A DNA stretch of 64,000 bases from Actinomycetaceae bacterium (GCA_030537735.1 JAUNVG010000009.1:1-64000), one strand, 5' to 3'. Positions 41,030-48,007 are shown, counted from the stretch's first letter. Numbers and translations are program-made. Notes: generated by a model from the letters alone, not told the origin.

Positions 41030-41431
41030 CTATCGGTGAGCGGGGGTGCCGCCTTCTACGGTTCTTTCAGCTATGCTAATCAATCCGGTGGTCCCTGCAG
41101 GCACCATACCGTGGGCGTGTGCTGCTTCTCGCAAAGCGGTGGGGGCAGATACCTTTTGCAGGGCTTGTTCTAATCCTTGGGTTTCTTCCTGTAGGCGGAT
41201 TAGTTCGATTTCGCTTTTGCGAATGTCGTAGGCGGTTTGCACCATTTGGGTGTTGAGGTACAAGTTGCCAGCGAGTATGCCCAGCAGTGTAATCACTATC
41301 AGGATCAGGTATTTCACTCCTGCCCGGTTGTTGGAGGCTGTTCCCACTACCCGTAGAGGAGCGGGCGCGTTGCGTGTGTGTAGTCGCGGGGTGGACAGTG
41401 GGCGGGTGTGAGATACCGCGGCGGAACTCAT
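41030..41431 (-). CDS. ftsL: FtsL-like septum formation protein
   Basis: A 133-residue bitopic protein: a disordered N-terminus (1-38), one membrane segment (KYLILIVITLLGILAGNLYL, about 40-59) and a leucine-zipper coiled coil (about 72-95). It sits between rsmH and ftsI, the standard FtsL place; sequence conservation of FtsL is low, so the call rests on topology and position. It overlaps rsmH by four bases. Confidence 0.85.
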   Translation of the reverse strand: MSSAAVSHTRPLSTPRLHTRNAPAPLRVVGTASNNRAGVKYLILIVITLLGILAGNLYLNTQMVQTAYDIRKSEIELIRLQEETQGLEQALQKVSAPTALREAAHAHGMVPAGTTGLISIAERTVEGGTPAHR

Positions 41432-42447
41432 CGCTTCTTCCTCCTTACTGGGTAGTTATTTTCCGGTTCTGGCTGTGGGTAGGTTTTTTGTAGCTGCACG
41501 GCCCGCAGCCTGACTGACTGTGCTCGCGGGTTGGTGGCGATTTCCTCAGCGTCGGCTTTTATGGGTTTTCGCGTCAGCAGTTTCAGCGGGGGCGAGTCCT
41601 GCTCCAGTGGCACGGGTAGCCCCAGCGGGGTTTCGTCTTGGCTGCCGGCGACGAATAGTTGTTTCACTATCCGGTCTTCGAGGGAGTGGTAGGACTCAAC
41701 CAGCAGGCGCCCGCCTATCTTTAGGCTTCCCAGCGCGGCGGGCAGGGCGCGTTCTAAGATGGTGAGTTCTTCGTTTACGGCTATGCGCAGTGCTTGGAAG
41801 GTGCGTTTGGCGGGGTGTCCTCCGTGGCGCCGGGTGGCTGCGGGGATGGCCTCGCGCACCAGTTCCGCTAGCTGTTGGGAGTTCTCGATCGGCTGGTGGG
41901 CGCGTTCACGCACGATGGCTTGGGCGATGCGGCGGGCGAATCGTTCTTCTCCCCACTGACGCAGGATGCGGGTTAGTTCGTCTTCGCTGGCTTGGTTTAC
42001 CAGGTCGGCGGCGGTGGTGGTGGCGGTGGTGTCCATCCGCATGTCCAAGGCCGCGGGCCGGGAGTAGGAAAAGCCGCGTTCGTCCTCGTCTAGTTGCAGG
42101 GAGGACACCCCCAGGTCCATAAGGATTGCGTCTACTGGCTGATCGCTGACGGTGTCGATGCGGTCGTAGGTGGTGTGGACGCAGCGGAAGCGGTCGGCGA
42201 ACGGGGCGAGGCGTTGGCTGGCTAGTTGCAGCGCCTGCGGGTCGCGGTCGATGCCGATTACCTGCGCGTTGGGGAAGGCACTTAGGATGGCGTGGCTGTG
42301 CCCGCCCATTCCTAAGGTGGCGTCGATGACGGTGGTGGGTTGTTCGCCTTCGAGGACGGGGCTGAGTAGCTGCAGGATTTGCGCGGTTAGTACCGGGGTG
42401 TGGAGGGTTGCGATGTGGTCGCTGGTGACTGCGGTGTGGTCGGTCAT
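41428..42447 (-). CDS. rsmH: 16S rRNA (cytosine1402-N4)-methyltransferase
   Basis: Methylates C1402 in the ribosomal P site. 339 residues: VIDATLGMGGHSHAILSAFP (SAM site), VIGIDRDPQALQLASQRL, ILMDLGVSSLQLDEDERGFS, DMRMD, GHPAKRTFQALRIAVNEEL, and a SYHSLEDRIVKQLF motif near the end. RBS AAGGAGG is three to five bases from the ATG. It stands in the dcw cluster after mraZ, as in most bacteria. Confidence 0.97.
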   Translation of the reverse strand: MTDHTAVTSDHIATLHTPVLTAQILQLLSPVLEGEQPTTVIDATLGMGGHSHAILSAFPNAQVIGIDRDPQALQLASQRLAPFADRFRCVHTTYDRIDTVSDQPVDAILMDLGVSSLQLDEDERGFSYSRPAALDMRMDTTATTTAADLVNQASEDELTRILRQWGEERFARRIAQAIVRERAHQPIENSQQLAELVREAIPAATRRHGGHPAKRTFQALRIAVNEELTILERALPAALGSLKIGGRLLVESYHSLEDRIVKQLFVAGSQDETPLGLPVPLEQDSPPLKLLTRKPIKADAEEIATNPRAQSVRLRAVQLQKTYPQPEPENNYPVRRKKR

Positions 42448-42576
42448 CGTCCCTCCTTCTTGTCGGTGTATTTTGTGCCTGTTTGTGGTGGTTTCGGTCC
42501 ACTTGGACTCCCACCGTTGGTTCCGCCGCCGGGGAAGTGGCTTCGGAGGCTCGGTAAGAGACCACGTGGACCGGTT

Positions 42577-43008
42577 CTAGAACATGCCGGGAATGATTTC
42601 TTCTGCCGTTTGGGAGAACACTTCTTCTTGCTGGGTGAGGTAGTTTTCCCATTCGGTGGCGTTCCAGATTTCCACTCGCGTTCCCGCGCCGATGACGGCG
42701 AGGTCGCGCTCTAGTGATGCGTAGCTGCGGAGGTTCGCGGGGATAGTGATTCGTCCTTGCTTGTCGGGGATTTCGTCGCATGCCCCCGAGAGCATGACGC
42801 GCACGTAGTCGCGAGCTTGCTTCGAACTAAGTGGTGCTTGTCGCAGCTGGTTGAACATCTGTTGGAACTCTTGGCTGGGGAAAGCGTAGAGACAGCGGTC
42901 CTGGCCGCGGGTTATTACCACTCCGTTGGCGAGCTGATCACGGTACTTAGCGGGCAGGATGAGGCGTCCTTTGTCGTCGAGTTTTGGCTCGTACGTCCCT
43001 AGGAACAC
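42577..43008 (-). CDS. mraZ: Transcriptional regulator MraZ
   Basis: AbrB-like DNA-binding regulator of the dcw cluster, 143 residues with two MraZ repeats: [20 protein letters not shown] and [21 protein letters not shown] choose GTG 43008 because the family begins directly with this [11 protein letters not shown] sequence, and GGGGG lies eight bases upstream; a GTG three codons earlier has no suitable site. It should bind the repeats just upstream and repress its own operon. Confidence 0.94.
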
Positions 43009-43050
43009 CGTTTTCACCCCCAGCTGATTCCGTCACCGGCATCACGTATC

Positions 43051-43300: not shown

Positions 43301-43336
43301 TAAGTGCCCGGGAACCAAAAAGTTCCCGGGCACTTA
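43301..43336. terminator. Perfect 15-bp hairpin downstream of the Asp23 operon
   Basis: TAAGTGCCCGGGAAC (43301-43315) and its exact reverse complement (43322-43336) enclose a CAAAAA loop. It starts 17 bases past the last gene of the Asp23 operon. Neither side has a U tract after the stem. A terminator or 3'-end stabiliser is likely. Confidence 0.6.
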
Positions 43337-43353: not shown

Positions 43354-43965
43354 TTAGTGGTTGACCACGTGCACGGCAGTTATTTCCACCGCTGGGTCTT
43401 GCCAGCCAGCTTGCTGCAGGCATGCTCGGCTACGTTGGCTTACCTCTTGCAAGACTTCTTTAACCAACCGATCGGGGTTAATTGCCAGGCGTATCTTGCA
43501 TTCTGCGCGTTTGGCATCAAGTTTGATGTAGTCGCCTTCTTCTTTTTCTTGTCCGAACAGATTCGCCAAGGCACTGGCTTGGTAGAGTTTCACCACTCCT
43601 TCCACTGCCAACACCGCATCTGCTACTTCCTGGGCTAGGCCTTCAGGTACGGGCGCTACAGTGGCAGCGGGGTTTGCCTGGCTGAGTTCGACCTCGCCCT
43701 GGGGCTGGCCGGTTTCCGACGCCTCCGTAGCGGCGGCTTTCTTCCCCGCATCCTCACTGGGGGCAGGCGGTTTAGGTTCATGCTCTTCGGGACCGCGCTC
43801 CCCCACTTCCCCACTGGAAGTAGCCTCATCAGGGGCAATATGAGTGGGTAGCTCGTTTTCGTCTTGCGGTGTCGCTCCCGGCAAGTACAGGTGCATTCCA
43901 GGCTTGGGAATGGGCGCCTCACTGGCACCGGAGCCAGCATTAGTGTCAGATTTGCGCGGGTTCAT
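43354..43965 (-). CDS. Asp23-like protein with disordered N-terminus
   Basis: A 203-residue protein. Residues 1-105 are low-complexity (Pro, Glu, Ala, Ser). The folded C-terminus (about 108-203) has the Asp23/Gls24 pattern: LAQEVADAVLAVEGVVKLYQ, CKIRLAINPDRLVKEVLQEV and VEITAVHVV. Asp23 proteins are envelope-stress proteins attached to the membrane through AmaP. The ATG at 43965 has AAGGA five bases upstream; the frame overlaps the preceding gene by 20 bases. It is the last gene of the operon. Confidence 0.65.
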   Translation of the reverse strand: MNPRKSDTNAGSGASEAPIPKPGMHLYLPGATPQDENELPTHIAPDEATSSGEVGERGPEEHEPKPPAPSEDAGKKAAATEASETGQPQGEVELSQANPAATVAPVPEGLAQEVADAVLAVEGVVKLYQASALANLFGQEKEEGDYIKLDAKRAECKIRLAINPDRLVKEVLQEVSQRSRACLQQAGWQDPAVEITAVHVVNH

Positions 43966-44554
43966 GCTCATCCTTAAAAACGTCGATCACGTCAATATTG
44001 ACCAGCGGAACTTCCACGCCAGTTTGTTCAAAAACTAAGTCGCACACACGCTCGCGCAACCCCTCCATTGCCGGAGGAATCTCACAACCGTACTTAACGG
44101 CGACTTCACAATCCAATTCCAGGGCAGAAGCCAATTCACCATCGGTATGCGCACTGTCCGTATCGAGGCTCGGACGTATCTTCGACCCCAGCACGAAAAC
44201 CGCATCCGTGGAACAACGGTTACGGATCAAGGACCGCAAGAGCGCTTCGGTTACTCCCAAATGGTTGCCACCGTCCTCGGCAATAACCAAGGTCTTACCC
44301 TCGCGCACCGGCAAGGAAAGCCGGGAGAGGATCTCACTGGCCCAGTTCGGGTCTGCAGGAGTGTCATCGGTGTCTTGCCGCAAGGTACCGGCCCAGGCTC
44401 CCACCGCCTCCACACTCGCCAACACGTTTTGGCAGTGCTCGCACTTTTGCACGTGCCGATGCAGTGCAGGTTTTTCTTCTTCACGTTTTTCTGGCGGCAC
44501 ATCCGCGTAGGCAGATATCCGCGACAGGGGCGTGCCGCAGTTAAGGATATTCAT
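43946..44554 (-). CDS. Zinc-finger (anti-sigma type) and Asp23-like fusion protein
   Basis: A 202-residue protein right after an ECF-type sigma gene. Residues about 6-50 look like a zf-HC2 anti-sigma zinc finger: C6, ISAYADVPPEKREEE, then H34-x3-C38-x2-C41 (HVQKCEHC). Residues about 95-195 look Asp23-like: GELASALELDCEVAVKYGCE, LRERVCDLVFEQTGVEVPLV and NIDVIDVF. No membrane segment is seen. The ATG at 44554 overlaps the sigma stop (ATGA), the coupling typical of sigma/anti-sigma pairs. It is inferred to hold the sigma factor inactive; that an Asp23-type domain senses the envelope signal is a hypothesis. Confidence 0.65.
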   Translation of the reverse strand: MNILNCGTPLSRISAYADVPPEKREEEKPALHRHVQKCEHCQNVLASVEAVGAWAGTLRQDTDDTPADPNWASEILSRLSLPVREGKTLVIAEDGGNHLGVTEALLRSLIRNRCSTDAVFVLGSKIRPSLDTDSAHTDGELASALELDCEVAVKYGCEIPPAMEGLRERVCDLVFEQTGVEVPLVNIDVIDVFKDEHEPAQI

Positions 44555-45105
44555 CGCCACTCTCCCATCTTCTGTGCAATATTTTTTCGCGCTCGCGCCA
44601 GGCGTCCTCGCACCGTTGCTTCACTGATTCCGCAGTCGCGGGCAATTTCTTCGTAGTTCATTTGTCCGATTTCACGCAGCACCCACACTTGGCGCTGGTT
44701 GGAGGGGATTTCACGCAACACCCGCTGCAGCTGCTCCAGGGTCTGAGACTGGGCAACTTCTTCTTGCGGGGTAGGAAAACTGCCTGCGATTTGCAGGTCT
44801 TCTATGGGTTGGCTGGGGCGGCGCGCCCGCATTTGGTCTATCGCCTTACGGGCGGTTATGCGCATCAGCCAAGATCTCACCGCGTCGCGGTTACGCAGGG
44901 TTTCAATGGTTTGCCAGGCGGTTATCAAAGCTTCTTGAACAGCTTCGTCGGCATCGGTTTGCGAGGACGTTAAGTAGGTTGCGTATCGACTCATCGCGGG
45001 CGCGTGGCGGGCAACCAGCTCCGTGAAAGCTGCATCGTCCCCATCCACGGTGAGCGCAACTAAGGCTGCGTCACCGAGTTTGCTCGGCGCCATACCGGTT
45101 TGCAT
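44551..45105 (-). CDS. ECF-type RNA polymerase sigma factor
   Basis: 184 residues with sigma region 2 (about 22-95: FTELVARHAPAMSRYATYLT, ADEAVQEALITAWQ, RSWLMRITARKAIDQMR) and region 4 (about 125-180: LREIPSNQRQVWVLREIGQM, YEEIARDCGISEATVRGRLA). Region 3 is missing, as in the ECF group. ATG 45105 is chosen with GGAAG eight bases upstream; a TTG two codons earlier is too close to that site. It probably directs transcription of the Asp23 operon. Confidence 0.88.
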   Translation of the reverse strand: MQTGMAPSKLGDAALVALTVDGDDAAFTELVARHAPAMSRYATYLTSSQTDADEAVQEALITAWQTIETLRNRDAVRSWLMRITARKAIDQMRARRPSQPIEDLQIAGSFPTPQEEVAQSQTLEQLQRVLREIPSNQRQVWVLREIGQMNYEEIARDCGISEATVRGRLARARKNIAQKMGEWR

Positions 45106-45185
45106 TTGCAACGCTTCCTTCTTTCCACCAAGGGGCGCGGCAGCGAATGCTACAGCGCCCCTATGGTTTCACCATAACTAGTGCC

Positions 45186-45210
45186 CGGAGGCGGCTTGGC
45201 TACGCCTCCG
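45186..45210. terminator. Hairpin after the CsbD-like gene
   Basis: CGGAGGCG (45186-45193) pairs with CGCCTCCG (45203-45210). It starts 11 bases past the CsbD-like stop. A second stem, AGGGGCGC/GCGCCCCT (45131-45162), follows before the sigma gene. Neither has a U run; partial termination is possible. Confidence 0.45.
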
Positions 45211-45220
45211 ACGCAGGTAC

Positions 45221-45535
45221 TTAGTTACGGAAGCTATCGATAATCTGGCTGGCTGCGTCTTTAACGTTGCCGGCGATCTCGCTGGCTTCTTCCTTGGCGC
45301 GTTCGCCCAGTTCGGAAGCCTTCTCCCCCAGGTCGCTACCAGCGGCCTTGAGCTTGTCAGACAGTTCCCCGCCCGACTTTTCCGCCTTGTCTTTGAGCTC
45401 GTTAAGTTTTTCGCTCACATCAGCTTTCACCTGCTGTGCTTTACCTTCGAGCTCAGTGGACTTGTCGTCGGTGGCGGCGCCACCCATTTCTTTTACCTTG
45501 CCTTCGACTTTATCGGCCAAGTTATCCATCTGCAT
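45221..45535 (-). CDS. CsbD/LEA-like stress protein
   Basis: A 104-residue, highly charged helical protein rich in Lys, Glu, Ala and Ser without cysteine. The start, MQMDNLADKVEGKVKEMGG, matches CsbD-like proteins, and the rest carries 11-residue-type amphipathic repeats (KADVSEKLNELKDKAEKSGG) like LEA proteins. Such proteins are general-stress induced; no biochemical role is known. The ATG at 45535 is chosen because the family begins here; the RBS is weak. Hairpins on both sides may let it accumulate separately from the rest of the operon. Confidence 0.75.
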   Translation of the reverse strand: MQMDNLADKVEGKVKEMGGAATDDKSTELEGKAQQVKADVSEKLNELKDKAEKSGGELSDKLKAAGSDLGEKASELGERAKEEASEIAGNVKDAASQIIDSFRN

Positions 45536-45574
45536 GTTTTTCTTCTTTCTTGTTGAACTATCTGCGTCCACTCA

Positions 45575-45596
45575 CGGGTGCCGAACCTGGCACCCG
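45575..45596. terminator. Hairpin before the CsbD-like gene
   Basis: CGGGTGCC (45575-45582) pairs with GGCACCCG (45589-45596) over a six-base loop, between the AmaP-like stop and the CsbD-like start. No U run follows. It may be an attenuator or an RNA processing site. Confidence 0.4.
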
Positions 45597-45615
45597 CGAG
45601 TATGGCGCGGAGGGT

Positions 45616-46221
45616 TTATTTAACGCGCTTGCGGTTAGCTATCGCCGTTTGCCAGTTGCTTCCGACGTGGACGTGGACGGGGATCTGACGTCCCAAGATG
45701 TTGTCCAGGTCGCTAACCATCTTGCGCACTAGTTGTGCCATTTCTTCTGGTGGCGCACCTTTGAAGGTCGCTACCGAAATGGACAGCTGCGGTTGCCCGC
45801 GGTGTTCAAAAGAGCGGGTGCTTAGGGAGTGGACCCACGGTGAGTCGCTGGCGTGGGTTGACAGCAGGTCGTTGATGAATCCAACTTCCGCCACCGTGTT
45901 CCCGTACTCGTCAGCGTGCGGGTCGTCCAGGTTCTTGGTGCGTCCCCCGCCTTGGGCTAGCAGCAGGGACAGCAGCAGTATGATTGCCAGTATTCCCACT
46001 GCCAGTACCGCTACTGTCAGCCAGGAAACGTCGGTTCCGATTACCACTGCTGAGCGCGATATGCGTGCCCATTGTGTTTGTAACCATGTCCCTTGGGTTT
46101 CCCATAGCTGTTGGACTTGGGGGGAGATCGCGGCGGCGAGGACGAATCCTCCTACCGCGGTCAACACCAGTCCCAGCACGGTGAGGAAGAAGCGGTTTAG
46201 TTTGCGCGGGTAGTGTTTCAC
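45616..46221 (-). CDS. AmaP-like Asp23 membrane anchor
   Basis: A 201-residue protein with two membrane segments (about 11-32 and 66-88) and a cytosolic C-terminal domain (about 100-195) having the strand/helix pattern of AmaP, including PQLSISVATFKGAPPEEMAQ and LGRQIPVHVHVG. AmaP tethers Asp23 to the membrane in staphylococci. The gene overlaps the DUF6286-like gene by four bases. The call rests on topology, domain pattern and its Asp23 neighbours. Confidence 0.7.
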   Translation of the reverse strand: MKHYPRKLNRFFLTVLGLVLTAVGGFVLAAAISPQVQQLWETQGTWLQTQWARISRSAVVIGTDVSWLTVAVLAVGILAIILLLSLLLAQGGGRTKNLDDPHADEYGNTVAEVGFINDLLSTHASDSPWVHSLSTRSFEHRGQPQLSISVATFKGAPPEEMAQLVRKMVSDLDNILGRQIPVHVHVGSNWQTAIANRKRVK

Positions 46222-46796
46222 TGCGCTACCTTTCCTTCCTTCGCTAGGTTCACACGGGTCTTCACCTGTGGCTCCAGGTGGTAGCTGTCTACCACTTTTT
46301 CCAAAGAGGCAGCTATCTGCGCCTGGTCCAGTTCAGCTCCCGAGGTGGGGGTAATGTGTACGTCTAAGTTGCGCGCCCCCACAGAGGTGGATACTTGCGA
46401 ACTATCGAGTCCGCATCCGCGGCGCATGGCGGCGGAGGTTCCTGCCGCAATCACGGAGTCATCCATGACCATAGCGATGCGCTCATCGCGGATCGCGTGC
46501 CGACTGAGCCTGCCGGGGGCGAAGGCTTTAACCAGTAGGAACACTCCCACTAGTAGCGTGATCGCTCCCACGGGGGCGAGGATCTGCACCTGTTGGGTGC
46601 CTACCAGGGCGTAGTGCCACAGCTGGGAGGCGGGTACAAGCAGGTGTTTACCTGACATGGCGGCGATTATTTCAGCGCACAGGTATCCGATGCCGGCGAC
46701 TACCAGCAGTATCACCACGGAGGTGATGGCGGCGCGGGAGGAGTGTGTTTCACGGCGGATGATGGCCGCGTTGGTGCGGGTTAGATCATTGCTCAC
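46218..46796 (-). CDS. DUF6286-like membrane protein
   Basis: A 192-residue protein with two membrane segments (about 23-45 and 72-92) and a soluble C-terminal domain (about 100-185) containing DSVIAAGTSAAMRRGCGLDS and ARNLDVHITPTSGAELDQAQ. It is a standard companion of Asp23 genes in actinobacteria. Its fold and topology resemble the AmaP-like neighbour, hinting at common ancestry. Confidence 0.65.
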   Translation of the reverse strand: MSNDLTRTNAAIIRRETHSSRAAITSVVILLVVAGIGYLCAEIIAAMSGKHLLVPASQLWHYALVGTQQVQILAPVGAITLLVGVFLLVKAFAPGRLSRHAIRDERIAMVMDDSVIAAGTSAAMRRGCGLDSSQVSTSVGARNLDVHITPTSGAELDQAQIAASLEKVVDSYHLEPQVKTRVNLAKEGKVAQ

Positions 46797-46798
46797 CG

Positions 46799-47143
46799 CT
46801 ACTTCACTCTCCTTTCGTCTTCTTTGGGGGTGGTGATCCCGGTGAGGATCAAGTTAACTCCGCTGACATTCATGCCGCTGAGCGCACTGAAGCGTTCGGT
46901 TACCCGTTGGCGAACTTGTTTCATTTCGGCGTAGACGGTGTTCGTTTCGCTGTTGCGGCAGCGTTCAATGGCTTTGGAGTTGATCGGGGTGCGAGCTTCT
47001 ATTTCCAAGTCAGTTTCGCGATCGTGGAGGGCGGTTTGCACTTGTGTGTGTTGAATGTGCATTGCCTCGGCGGTCACCGCCTGCGCGAGAGTGTGGAGTG
47101 CTTGCCCCCGAATGCGGGTACGTCCACGGAATTCAGCTGTCAC
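46799..47143 (-). CDS. Short Asp23-like protein
   Basis: A 114-residue protein beginning RIRGQALHTLAQAVTAEAMH, followed by a strand pair (DRETDLEIEARTPI) and a helix with a final strand (VSGVNLILTGITT). This is the Asp23 strand-helix order, but the middle is diverged. It is two bases from each neighbour in the operon. Confidence 0.6.
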   Translation of the reverse strand: MTAEFRGRTRIRGQALHTLAQAVTAEAMHIQHTQVQTALHDRETDLEIEARTPINSKAIERCRNSETNTVYAEMKQVRQRVTERFSALSGMNVSGVNLILTGITTPKEDERRVK

Positions 47144-47145
47144 TG

Positions 47146-47343
47146 TTAATCCGAGGTGGTTGAGTTCTGCCCCATGATGGTCTTCCCGACTCCACGCAGG
47201 TCGAGTTTGCCTTCTGCAGCGCGACCGAGGACGGCTCCCACCAGCATGAACATGGCTGCTCCGAGGAAGCCGCTGAACCCGTGTTCAATGGCGAAGAACG
47301 CCAGTATCGCGGCGATTAAGATTCCTTGGGTGGTGCGGCTCAT
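47146..47343 (-). CDS. Small membrane protein, DUF2273-like
   Basis: A 65-residue protein with two membrane segments (about 8-22 and 26-42) joined by a short glycine turn (EHGFSGFLGAAMFMLVGAVL), then a charged tail. Small proteins like this are found beside Asp23 genes (DUF2273 family). It overlaps the Asp23 gene by four bases. Confidence 0.65.
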   Translation of the reverse strand: MSRTTQGILIAAILAFFAIEHGFSGFLGAAMFMLVGAVLGRAAEGKLDLRGVGKTIMGQNSTTSD

Positions 47344-47816
47344 TTAACGCGACCTTCACTTTCGGAAGATTTGTTTTCTTTGCTTTCGAGTTCTTTTTCG
47401 GTAACTACGTGCACGTCGGTGATGTCGATGTTGACTTCCTTAACGTCCAGTCCAACTAGGCCTTCAACGGCTTCGAAGACGGCGTCGCGGACCTGGTCTG
47501 CGACCTCGTGCACCGGGTGCGGGTATTCGACGATGAGCTTGATATCAACTGCAGCTTCGATCTCCCCTACTTCTACGCTCACGCCCTGGGTGATGTCTTT
47601 GGAGGCACCCACAGCTTCACGCATGGAGCCAATGGCGCGAGACATGGTGCCACCGAGGGAGTAAACGCCGGGGATGTTCTCAATCGCGAGGCCCGCGATC
47701 TTCGCCACCACGGAATCCTGAATGGTGGTTACCCCGCGGCCCTGATCGGCACCAACGTTGGTTTCCGGCTTCGCGGGTACGGGCAGGTTTTCGTTGTTTA
47801 CGTTCTTCTCAGCCAT
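47340..47816 (-). CDS. Asp23/Gls24 family envelope stress protein
   Basis: A 158-residue protein and the clearest Asp23 member here: TTIQDSVVAKIAGLAIENIP, GVYSLGG, VSVEVGEIEAAVDIKLIVEY, VHEVADQVRDAVFEAVEGLV, and LDVKEVNIDITDVHVV. The N-terminus is short and polar. RBS AAAGG precedes the ATG by eight bases. It is the first gene of a nine-gene operon. Confidence 0.88.
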   Translation of the reverse strand: MAEKNVNNENLPVPAKPETNVGADQGRGVTTIQDSVVAKIAGLAIENIPGVYSLGGTMSRAIGSMREAVGASKDITQGVSVEVGEIEAAVDIKLIVEYPHPVHEVADQVRDAVFEAVEGLVGLDVKEVNIDITDVHVVTEKELESKENKSSESEGRVK

Positions 47817-47843: not shown

Positions 47844-47867
47844 GACTGTCGATAGTAAGACGTTCCC
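47844..47867 (-). promoter_or_regulatory. Possible ECF-sigma promoter of the Asp23 operon
   Basis: On the minus strand GGGAAC (47862-47867) is followed after 15 bases by GTC (47844-47846), about 27 bases before the Asp23 ATG. GGAAC and GTC-type elements are typical of ECF promoters, although the usual spacer is 16-18 bases. Confidence 0.35.
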
Positions 47868-48007
47868 AGCCGGGAATTCCTCACGCTCCAATGTTAGTGA
47901 TTTAACTCACCCCTGTCCTGGGCAGGGGGAAATAGCAGGCGCGGGCTGGACAAACGCCAGCTAAAGGCCGCCGCGAGTGAGCACGCCGCGCGCTGCCCCA
48001 GCGCCAG

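Follow-up and report, generated by a model that had tools for sequence, protein, structure and literature searches.

The 64,000-nt stretch of an Actinomycetaceae bacterium genome analysed here (GCA_030537735.1 JAUNVG010000009.1:1-64000; the window) carries on its minus strand an Asp23/AmaP-like operon, inside which the gene of an extracytoplasmic function (ECF) sigma factor is directly followed by that of a soluble protein joining a putative zinc-binding module to an Asp23 domain (hereafter the fusion). The pairing of the two genes and the domains of the locus are near certain. Computation establishes the gene order, the domains, the conservation of the pair across actinobacteria and the conservation of a promoter ahead of the operon; taken together, the locus probably constitutes an autoregulated sigma module for envelope stress, with a cytoplasmic zinc-finger/Asp23 anti-sigma factor.

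The Sigma Factor and Its Fusion Partner

The sigma factor displays the ECF architecture, with regions 2 and 4 above their cut-offs and neither region 3 nor a C-terminal extension in its 184 residues, and the adjoining gene encodes a soluble Asp23-family protein, with PF03780 over the cut-off and no membrane segment. The ATGA overlap described between the two genes in an earlier reading of the window made from the sequence alone (the sequence-only reading) is present, the fusion starting at ATG 44554, and an AAGGAAG ribosome-binding site lies ahead of the sigma ATG at 45105. The starts of the sigma, fusion and CsbD genes were refined by eye. The features of this core are:

44551..45105, minus strand: ECF sigma factor, 184 aa, start ATG 45105 (PF04542 58.5 bits, PF08281 54.5 bits).
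43946..44554, minus strand: zinc-finger/Asp23 fusion of 202 aa, a predicted cytoplasmic anti-sigma factor (domain scans, AlphaFold2 model).
44432..44539, minus strand: zinc ligand stretch of the fusion, C6 ... H34-x3-C38-x2-C41, invariant in the closest relatives.
43973..44305, minus strand: Asp23 domain of the fusion, residues 84-194 (PF03780, profile-profile comparison, model fold).
47855..47884, minus strand: ECF-type promoter-like site GTGAGGAATTCCCGGCTGGGAACGTCTTAC, with -35-like GTGA, an 18-nt gap and -10-like CGTC (zero-mismatch match).

Named genomes were scanned with the sigma alignment alone, yielding 80 sigma-orthologue loci, and because the sigma factor alone was the query, this search was unbiased toward the partner. 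A fusion-family gene directly follows the sigma gene in 80/80 loci and overlaps it in 77/80, in genera that include Clavibacter, Microbacterium, Curtobacterium, Arthrobacter, Rothia, Promicromonospora, Brachybacterium, Nocardioides, Kineosporia, Lentzea, and Streptomyces. In turn, a sigma factor of this kind is found in 38 of the 40 regions fetched around fusion relatives (11-12.5 kb each, one only 8.9 kb). Full-length fusion relatives occur across the order and class, and the search for the same fusion in other genomes, which the sequence-only reading had suggested, reveals a pair conserved across actinobacteria and not a rare one. Moreover, the same gene order is seen again in dozens of genomes and is therefore more than chance.

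The usual neighbours of the pair are the genes of the Asp23/DUF2273/DUF6286/AmaP-like cluster. Among the 93 loci with both pair and cluster, the two are divergent in 50, on the same strand with sigma downstream (as in the window) in 33, on the same strand with sigma upstream in 8, and convergent in 2. In addition, of the 91 open reading frames (ORFs) tested that come after the pair, 82 are Asp23-like third genes of the Asp23c family (see below). Within the genus of the window, the distribution is patchy: the fusion or any Asp23 match appears in only 2/11 genomes at the threshold used, and the module was therefore gained or lost as a unit within the genus.

The Two Halves of the Fusion

The C-terminal half of the fusion, called Asp23-like in the sequence-only reading, turns out to be a complete Asp23 domain. 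PF03780 matches at 28.2 bits against a cut-off of 28 and over residues 146-194 only; profile-profile comparison with Asp23a, the product of the first gene of the operon, covers the whole domain at 98.4% (E 4.6e-15), and 54 of the 63 fusion-family members match PF03780. The AlphaFold2 model, built on 63 sequences, has a mean predicted local distance difference test (pLDDT) of 87.6 and a predicted template modelling score (pTM) of 0.64, and consists of helices at residues 10-17, 21-27, 29-37, 39-62, and 69-79 followed by an alpha/beta domain at 88-193. The most conserved columns of the family lie in the helix and in the Asp23 residues G86, E103, R111, and R167. In structure searches of the model (Foldseek, VIA-align) the rows cover residues 86-194 only, i.e., the Asp23 half; the likenesses to the MamM C-terminal domain and to ring proteins of type III secretion, with Z values up to 8.6, reflect a widespread alpha/beta arrangement and were not taken as a sign of function. 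As expected from the sequence-only reading, the fusion has no membrane segment of its own, and such segments are predicted in its DUF2273-, DUF6286- and AmaP-like neighbours.

In the N-terminal half, C6 and H34-x3-C38-x2-C41 are in place as previously described. The zf-HC2 call attached to them fared unevenly. Pfam PF13490 (zf-HC2) gives no match to the window fusion at E<=1, an outcome that the sequence-only reading had itself named as counting against the fusion call, and Pfam and NCBIfam scans leave the zinc half unsettled, with zf-HC2 in 1/63 relatives (E 0.055). However, the Pfam zf-HC2 model (35 residues) is too weak to decide, and profile comparison overrides it: against RsrA-type anti-sigma proteins from the same bacterial family, the N-terminal half scores 94.8% (E 5.5e-8), with C, H, C, and C aligned, and 20 column shuffles used as a control give at most 0.7%. 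The reference set for this comparison was used without fusion members; a first comparison, at 97.3%, was discarded since one reference row, L220, is itself a fusion relative, and the value of 94.8% comes from the rerun without it. L220, a protein of 224 aa from another genus of the same family, is encoded directly after an ECF sigma gene and passes the Pfam zf-HC2 cut-off alone (23.0 vs 22.2). A profile search of PDB sequences returned mainly designed armadillo proteins over residues 17-75, judged a composition artefact of the helical stretch, and, far down the same list (E 0.42), 3hug_B, the chain of the M. tuberculosis anti-sigma factor RslA. Reading the N-terminal half as a zinc module of the anti-sigma type is thus supported by the profile-profile comparison and by the Pfam match of L220; such a module does not explain everything, as partners in Nocardioides and presumed mycobacteria lack it.

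A Conserved Promoter Ahead of the Operon

The promoter-like site at 47855-47884 lies on the strand of the operon, 39 bases ahead of the Asp23a start codon, and is the only match with fewer than two mismatches in the genome, the next one having two. It falls outside the span covered by the sequence-only reading, just upstream of the operon. When four-base dyads ahead of Asp23a were counted blindly at 95 loci, GTGA-N18-CGTC came up in 50 of them, against 0.6 expected from shuffles and about 3 from the rate seen within these loci; other spacings than 18 reach at most 6. As the loci are related to one another, the counts do not represent independent events; nevertheless, both elements are constant across loci and the spacer sequences vary. 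The resulting promoter matrix, (C/T)GTGACGAAT-N13-CGTCTTA or, in shorter form, GTGAC-N17-CGTC, has an ECF-type arrangement. Another 65 loci lack the exact dyad; a site at p<=0.02 is nevertheless present in 29 of these, where 1.3 would be expected. Several related genomes contain the strict pattern a single time, at the Asp23 operon. A sigma-70-type promoter-like site was also looked for in the region, and none was found.

Proposed Mechanism and Alternatives

The site at 47855-47884 would be read by the neighbouring ECF sigma factor. In the mechanism proposed here, the sigma factor would recognize GTGAC(G)-N16/17-CGTC ahead of the Asp23 operon, the only strong site in the genome of the window, and in the window layout the same promoter would also drive the sigma gene itself. 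The regulatory loop would be closed, because the sigma and fusion genes lie inside the operon in this layout. The fusion, translationally coupled to the sigma factor, would act as a soluble anti-sigma factor, holding it by the N-terminal helices (a zinc-binding anti-sigma module in the window lineage) and the helix that follows. Inhibition of the sigma factor by the fusion is likely, judging from gene coupling and domain kinship. The Asp23 domain, in turn, may tie this inhibition to the state of an Asp23/AmaP-like layer on the inner face of the membrane, so that disturbance of the layer would free the sigma factor and more of the module would be made. The route of the signal, through contacts among Asp23 proteins or between Asp23 and AmaP, is a guess, as is the docking of the fusion to the AmaP-like anchor put forward in the sequence-only reading.

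A more specific version of the loop, which we regard as rather unlikely, holds that the sigma factor serves this single promoter and reports the assembly of the Asp23/AmaP layer, free Asp23-type subunits and the layer being rivals for binding to the Asp23 domain of the anti-sigma factor and the zinc part being optional. If this were true, the cell would match how much of a membrane scaffold it makes to how far that scaffold is assembled.

Several observations weigh against the autoregulated module as proposed. A clear promoter motif was not found at many Streptomyces, Nocardia, and presumed mycobacterial loci, and the dyad is present at 1/5 Asp23 loci without a nearby sigma gene, too few to part a link to the sigma factor from shared ancestry. 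For some sigma/fusion pairs, no Asp23 cluster is present within 6 kb. Moreover, the zinc module varies. Of the 37 aligned fusion members, 26 retain the complete set of four ligands, which is intact in 43/116 relatives in a wider set dominated by Microbacteriaceae, most of which have an eroded module (e.g., DGH...SPGC forms). Partners of 145-169 aa in Nocardioides, Aeromicrobium, and two presumed mycobacterial loci (L105, L107) consist of the helix and the Asp23 domain only, and short partners of this kind without the zinc module (L105, L107, L117, L133, L170; 145-169 aa) still overlap the sigma gene. With the zinc module eroded or absent in some lineages, the helix and Asp23 domain are the constant part of the family, and the region presumed to grip the sigma factor is not shared by every member. 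A division of labour in which the zinc half inhibits and the Asp23 half senses is therefore plausible for the window lineage and less firm for the family as a whole.

This variability bears directly on two other explanations, both of which we consider clearly unlikely. According to the first, the CHCC zinc site is a thiol-based redox switch that acts like that of RsrA, oxidation of the cysteines freeing the sigma factor, with the Asp23 half serving merely to position the protein. The best named family match of the N-terminal half is indeed RsrA TIGR03988 (E 9.5e-5), C-x27-H-x3-C-x2-C fits the RsrA ligand pattern, and the ligands persist in the 43 relatives mentioned above. However, the TIGR03988 score is 22.4 bits against a cut-off of 62.5, a C..H..C..C pattern is common in zinc anti-sigma modules that are not redox switches, and the ligands are lost in sister lineages that share the sigma factor, the operon, and the promoter. 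According to the second explanation, it is in truth the Asp23 domain with its preceding helix that binds the sigma factor, the zinc module being an accessory that was repeatedly lost. The Nocardioides, Aeromicrobium, and presumed mycobacterial partners, which have kept no other part and whose genes nevertheless overlap the sigma gene, speak for it, as does the high conservation of the helix and of G86, E103, R111, and R167; against this, it is the helical module that makes the contact in known zinc anti-sigma factors, and sigma factors paired with short partners may be controlled otherwise. Finally, that the fusion is a membrane adaptor or co-factor which localizes or helps the sigma factor instead of inhibiting it is very improbable: inhibition by any member of the family is a prediction only and the zinc ligands are lost in many members, but the coupling of sigma gene and soluble partner and the kinship to anti-sigma modules fit inhibition better, and the prediction in PMC8999054 is likewise of an anti-sigma factor.

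Other Genes and Features of the Operon

All nine minus-strand ORFs listed by the sequence-only reading at 43354-47816 were found, in the order (from the operon head) Asp23a, DUF2273-like, Asp23b, DUF6286-like, AmaP-like, CsbD, ECF sigma factor, fusion, Asp23c. The remaining features are:

47340..47816, minus strand: Asp23a, Asp23/Gls24 family, first gene, 158 aa (PF03780 87.2 bits).
47146..47343, minus strand: DUF2273-like small membrane protein, 65 aa (PF10031 15.9 bits, cut-off 25.4; one hydrophobic segment; position conserved).
46799..47143, minus strand: Asp23b, small Asp23-like protein, 114 aa (profile-profile comparison).
46218..46796, minus strand: DUF6286-like protein, 192 aa (PF19803 29.3 bits, cut-off 35; two hydrophobic segments).
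45616..46221, minus strand: AmaP-like membrane anchor, 201 aa (NF033218 41.4 bits, cut-off 55; two hydrophobic segments).
45221..45535, minus strand: CsbD-like protein, 104 aa, start ATG 45535 (PF05532 53.1 bits, cut-off 40).
43354..43971, minus strand: Asp23c, gene after the sigma/fusion pair, 205 aa, with an Asp23-like C-terminal part (profile-profile comparison).
45570..45601, no strand assigned: GC-rich hairpin between the AmaP-like gene and csbD.
45131..45162, no strand assigned: GC-rich hairpin between csbD and the sigma gene, a possible processing or attenuation site.
43301..43336, no strand assigned: perfect 15-bp inverted repeat with a 6-nt loop, after the last gene and before mraZ, a probable operon terminator.

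The "-like" labels given to the DUF2273, DUF6286, and AmaP proteins are apt, as each match lies below its cut-off; that of the AmaP-like protein to NF033218 is full-length, yet under the curated value. A Pfam scan of the proteins at 46799-47143 and 43354-43971 gives no Asp23 match in either, and their earlier description as Asp23-like is borne out by profile-profile comparison, in which Asp23b scores 76% against Asp23a (E 2e-5) and 95.7% against the C-terminal half of the fusion, and Asp23c, the third gene of the sigma triad, 96.6% against Asp23a (E 6.8e-10). The csbD gene is flanked by the two GC-rich hairpins, which could give csbD and the sigma part different transcript levels; an Rfam scan of the region, including the hairpin between csbD and the sigma gene, matched no family. 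Directly downstream of the operon lie mraZ and an mraW-like gene (41428-43017), the start of the cell wall and division cluster.

Comparison with Known Systems

Three systems invite comparison. Firstly, the zinc-binding anti-sigma factors (ZAS; zf-HC2) of the RsrA/ChrR/RslA type share with the fusion N-terminal helices with C..H-x3-C-x2-C ligands and a gene directly after that of an ECF sigma factor. Their output part is a cupin, a membrane helix, or nothing, whereas that of the fusion is Asp23, and the ligands are dispensable across the fusion family, unlike in that type.

Secondly, in S. aureus, asp23 is a SigB-dependent gene and is not known to have a dedicated ECF pair. Like the window operon, the S. 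aureus Asp23-AmaP system combines Asp23 proteins, an AmaP-type anchor, and CsbD in one operon; the window operon differs in having the genes of a sigma factor and a candidate anti-sigma factor inside it. AmaP tethers S. aureus Asp23, a filament-forming protein, to the membrane, and loss of either protein induces the cell wall stress response (PMC6954212).

Thirdly, ECF286 and ECF292 sigma factors are described in PMC8999054, citing Casas-Pastor et al. 2021, as adjoining soluble Asp23-family proteins that are predicted anti-sigma factors, with model proteins from Streptomyces rimosus and Mycolicibacterium cosmeticum. Beyond PMC8999054, no further paper naming ECF286/ECF292 in this context was found. 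As in the window locus, these groups combine an actinobacterial ECF sigma gene with a neighbouring soluble Asp23-family gene for a predicted anti-sigma factor, a likeness of architecture and neighbour gene, and pairs of this kind were also met here in named Streptomyces genomes and in two presumed mycobacterial genomes. The pairing of a sigma factor with an Asp23-type anti-sigma factor is thus already predicted in print, and the window locus belongs to the predicted kind. What is added here is the survey of the zinc module and the conserved promoter, which may or may not stand in Casas-Pastor et al. Asp23 proteins are widespread and abundant, and in actinobacteria the Asp23/AmaP layer comes with its own sigma factor, a candidate anti-sigma factor, and a conserved promoter. 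The promoter, the domain boundaries, and the dispensable zinc site provide concrete evidence for the published ECF286/ECF292 prediction.

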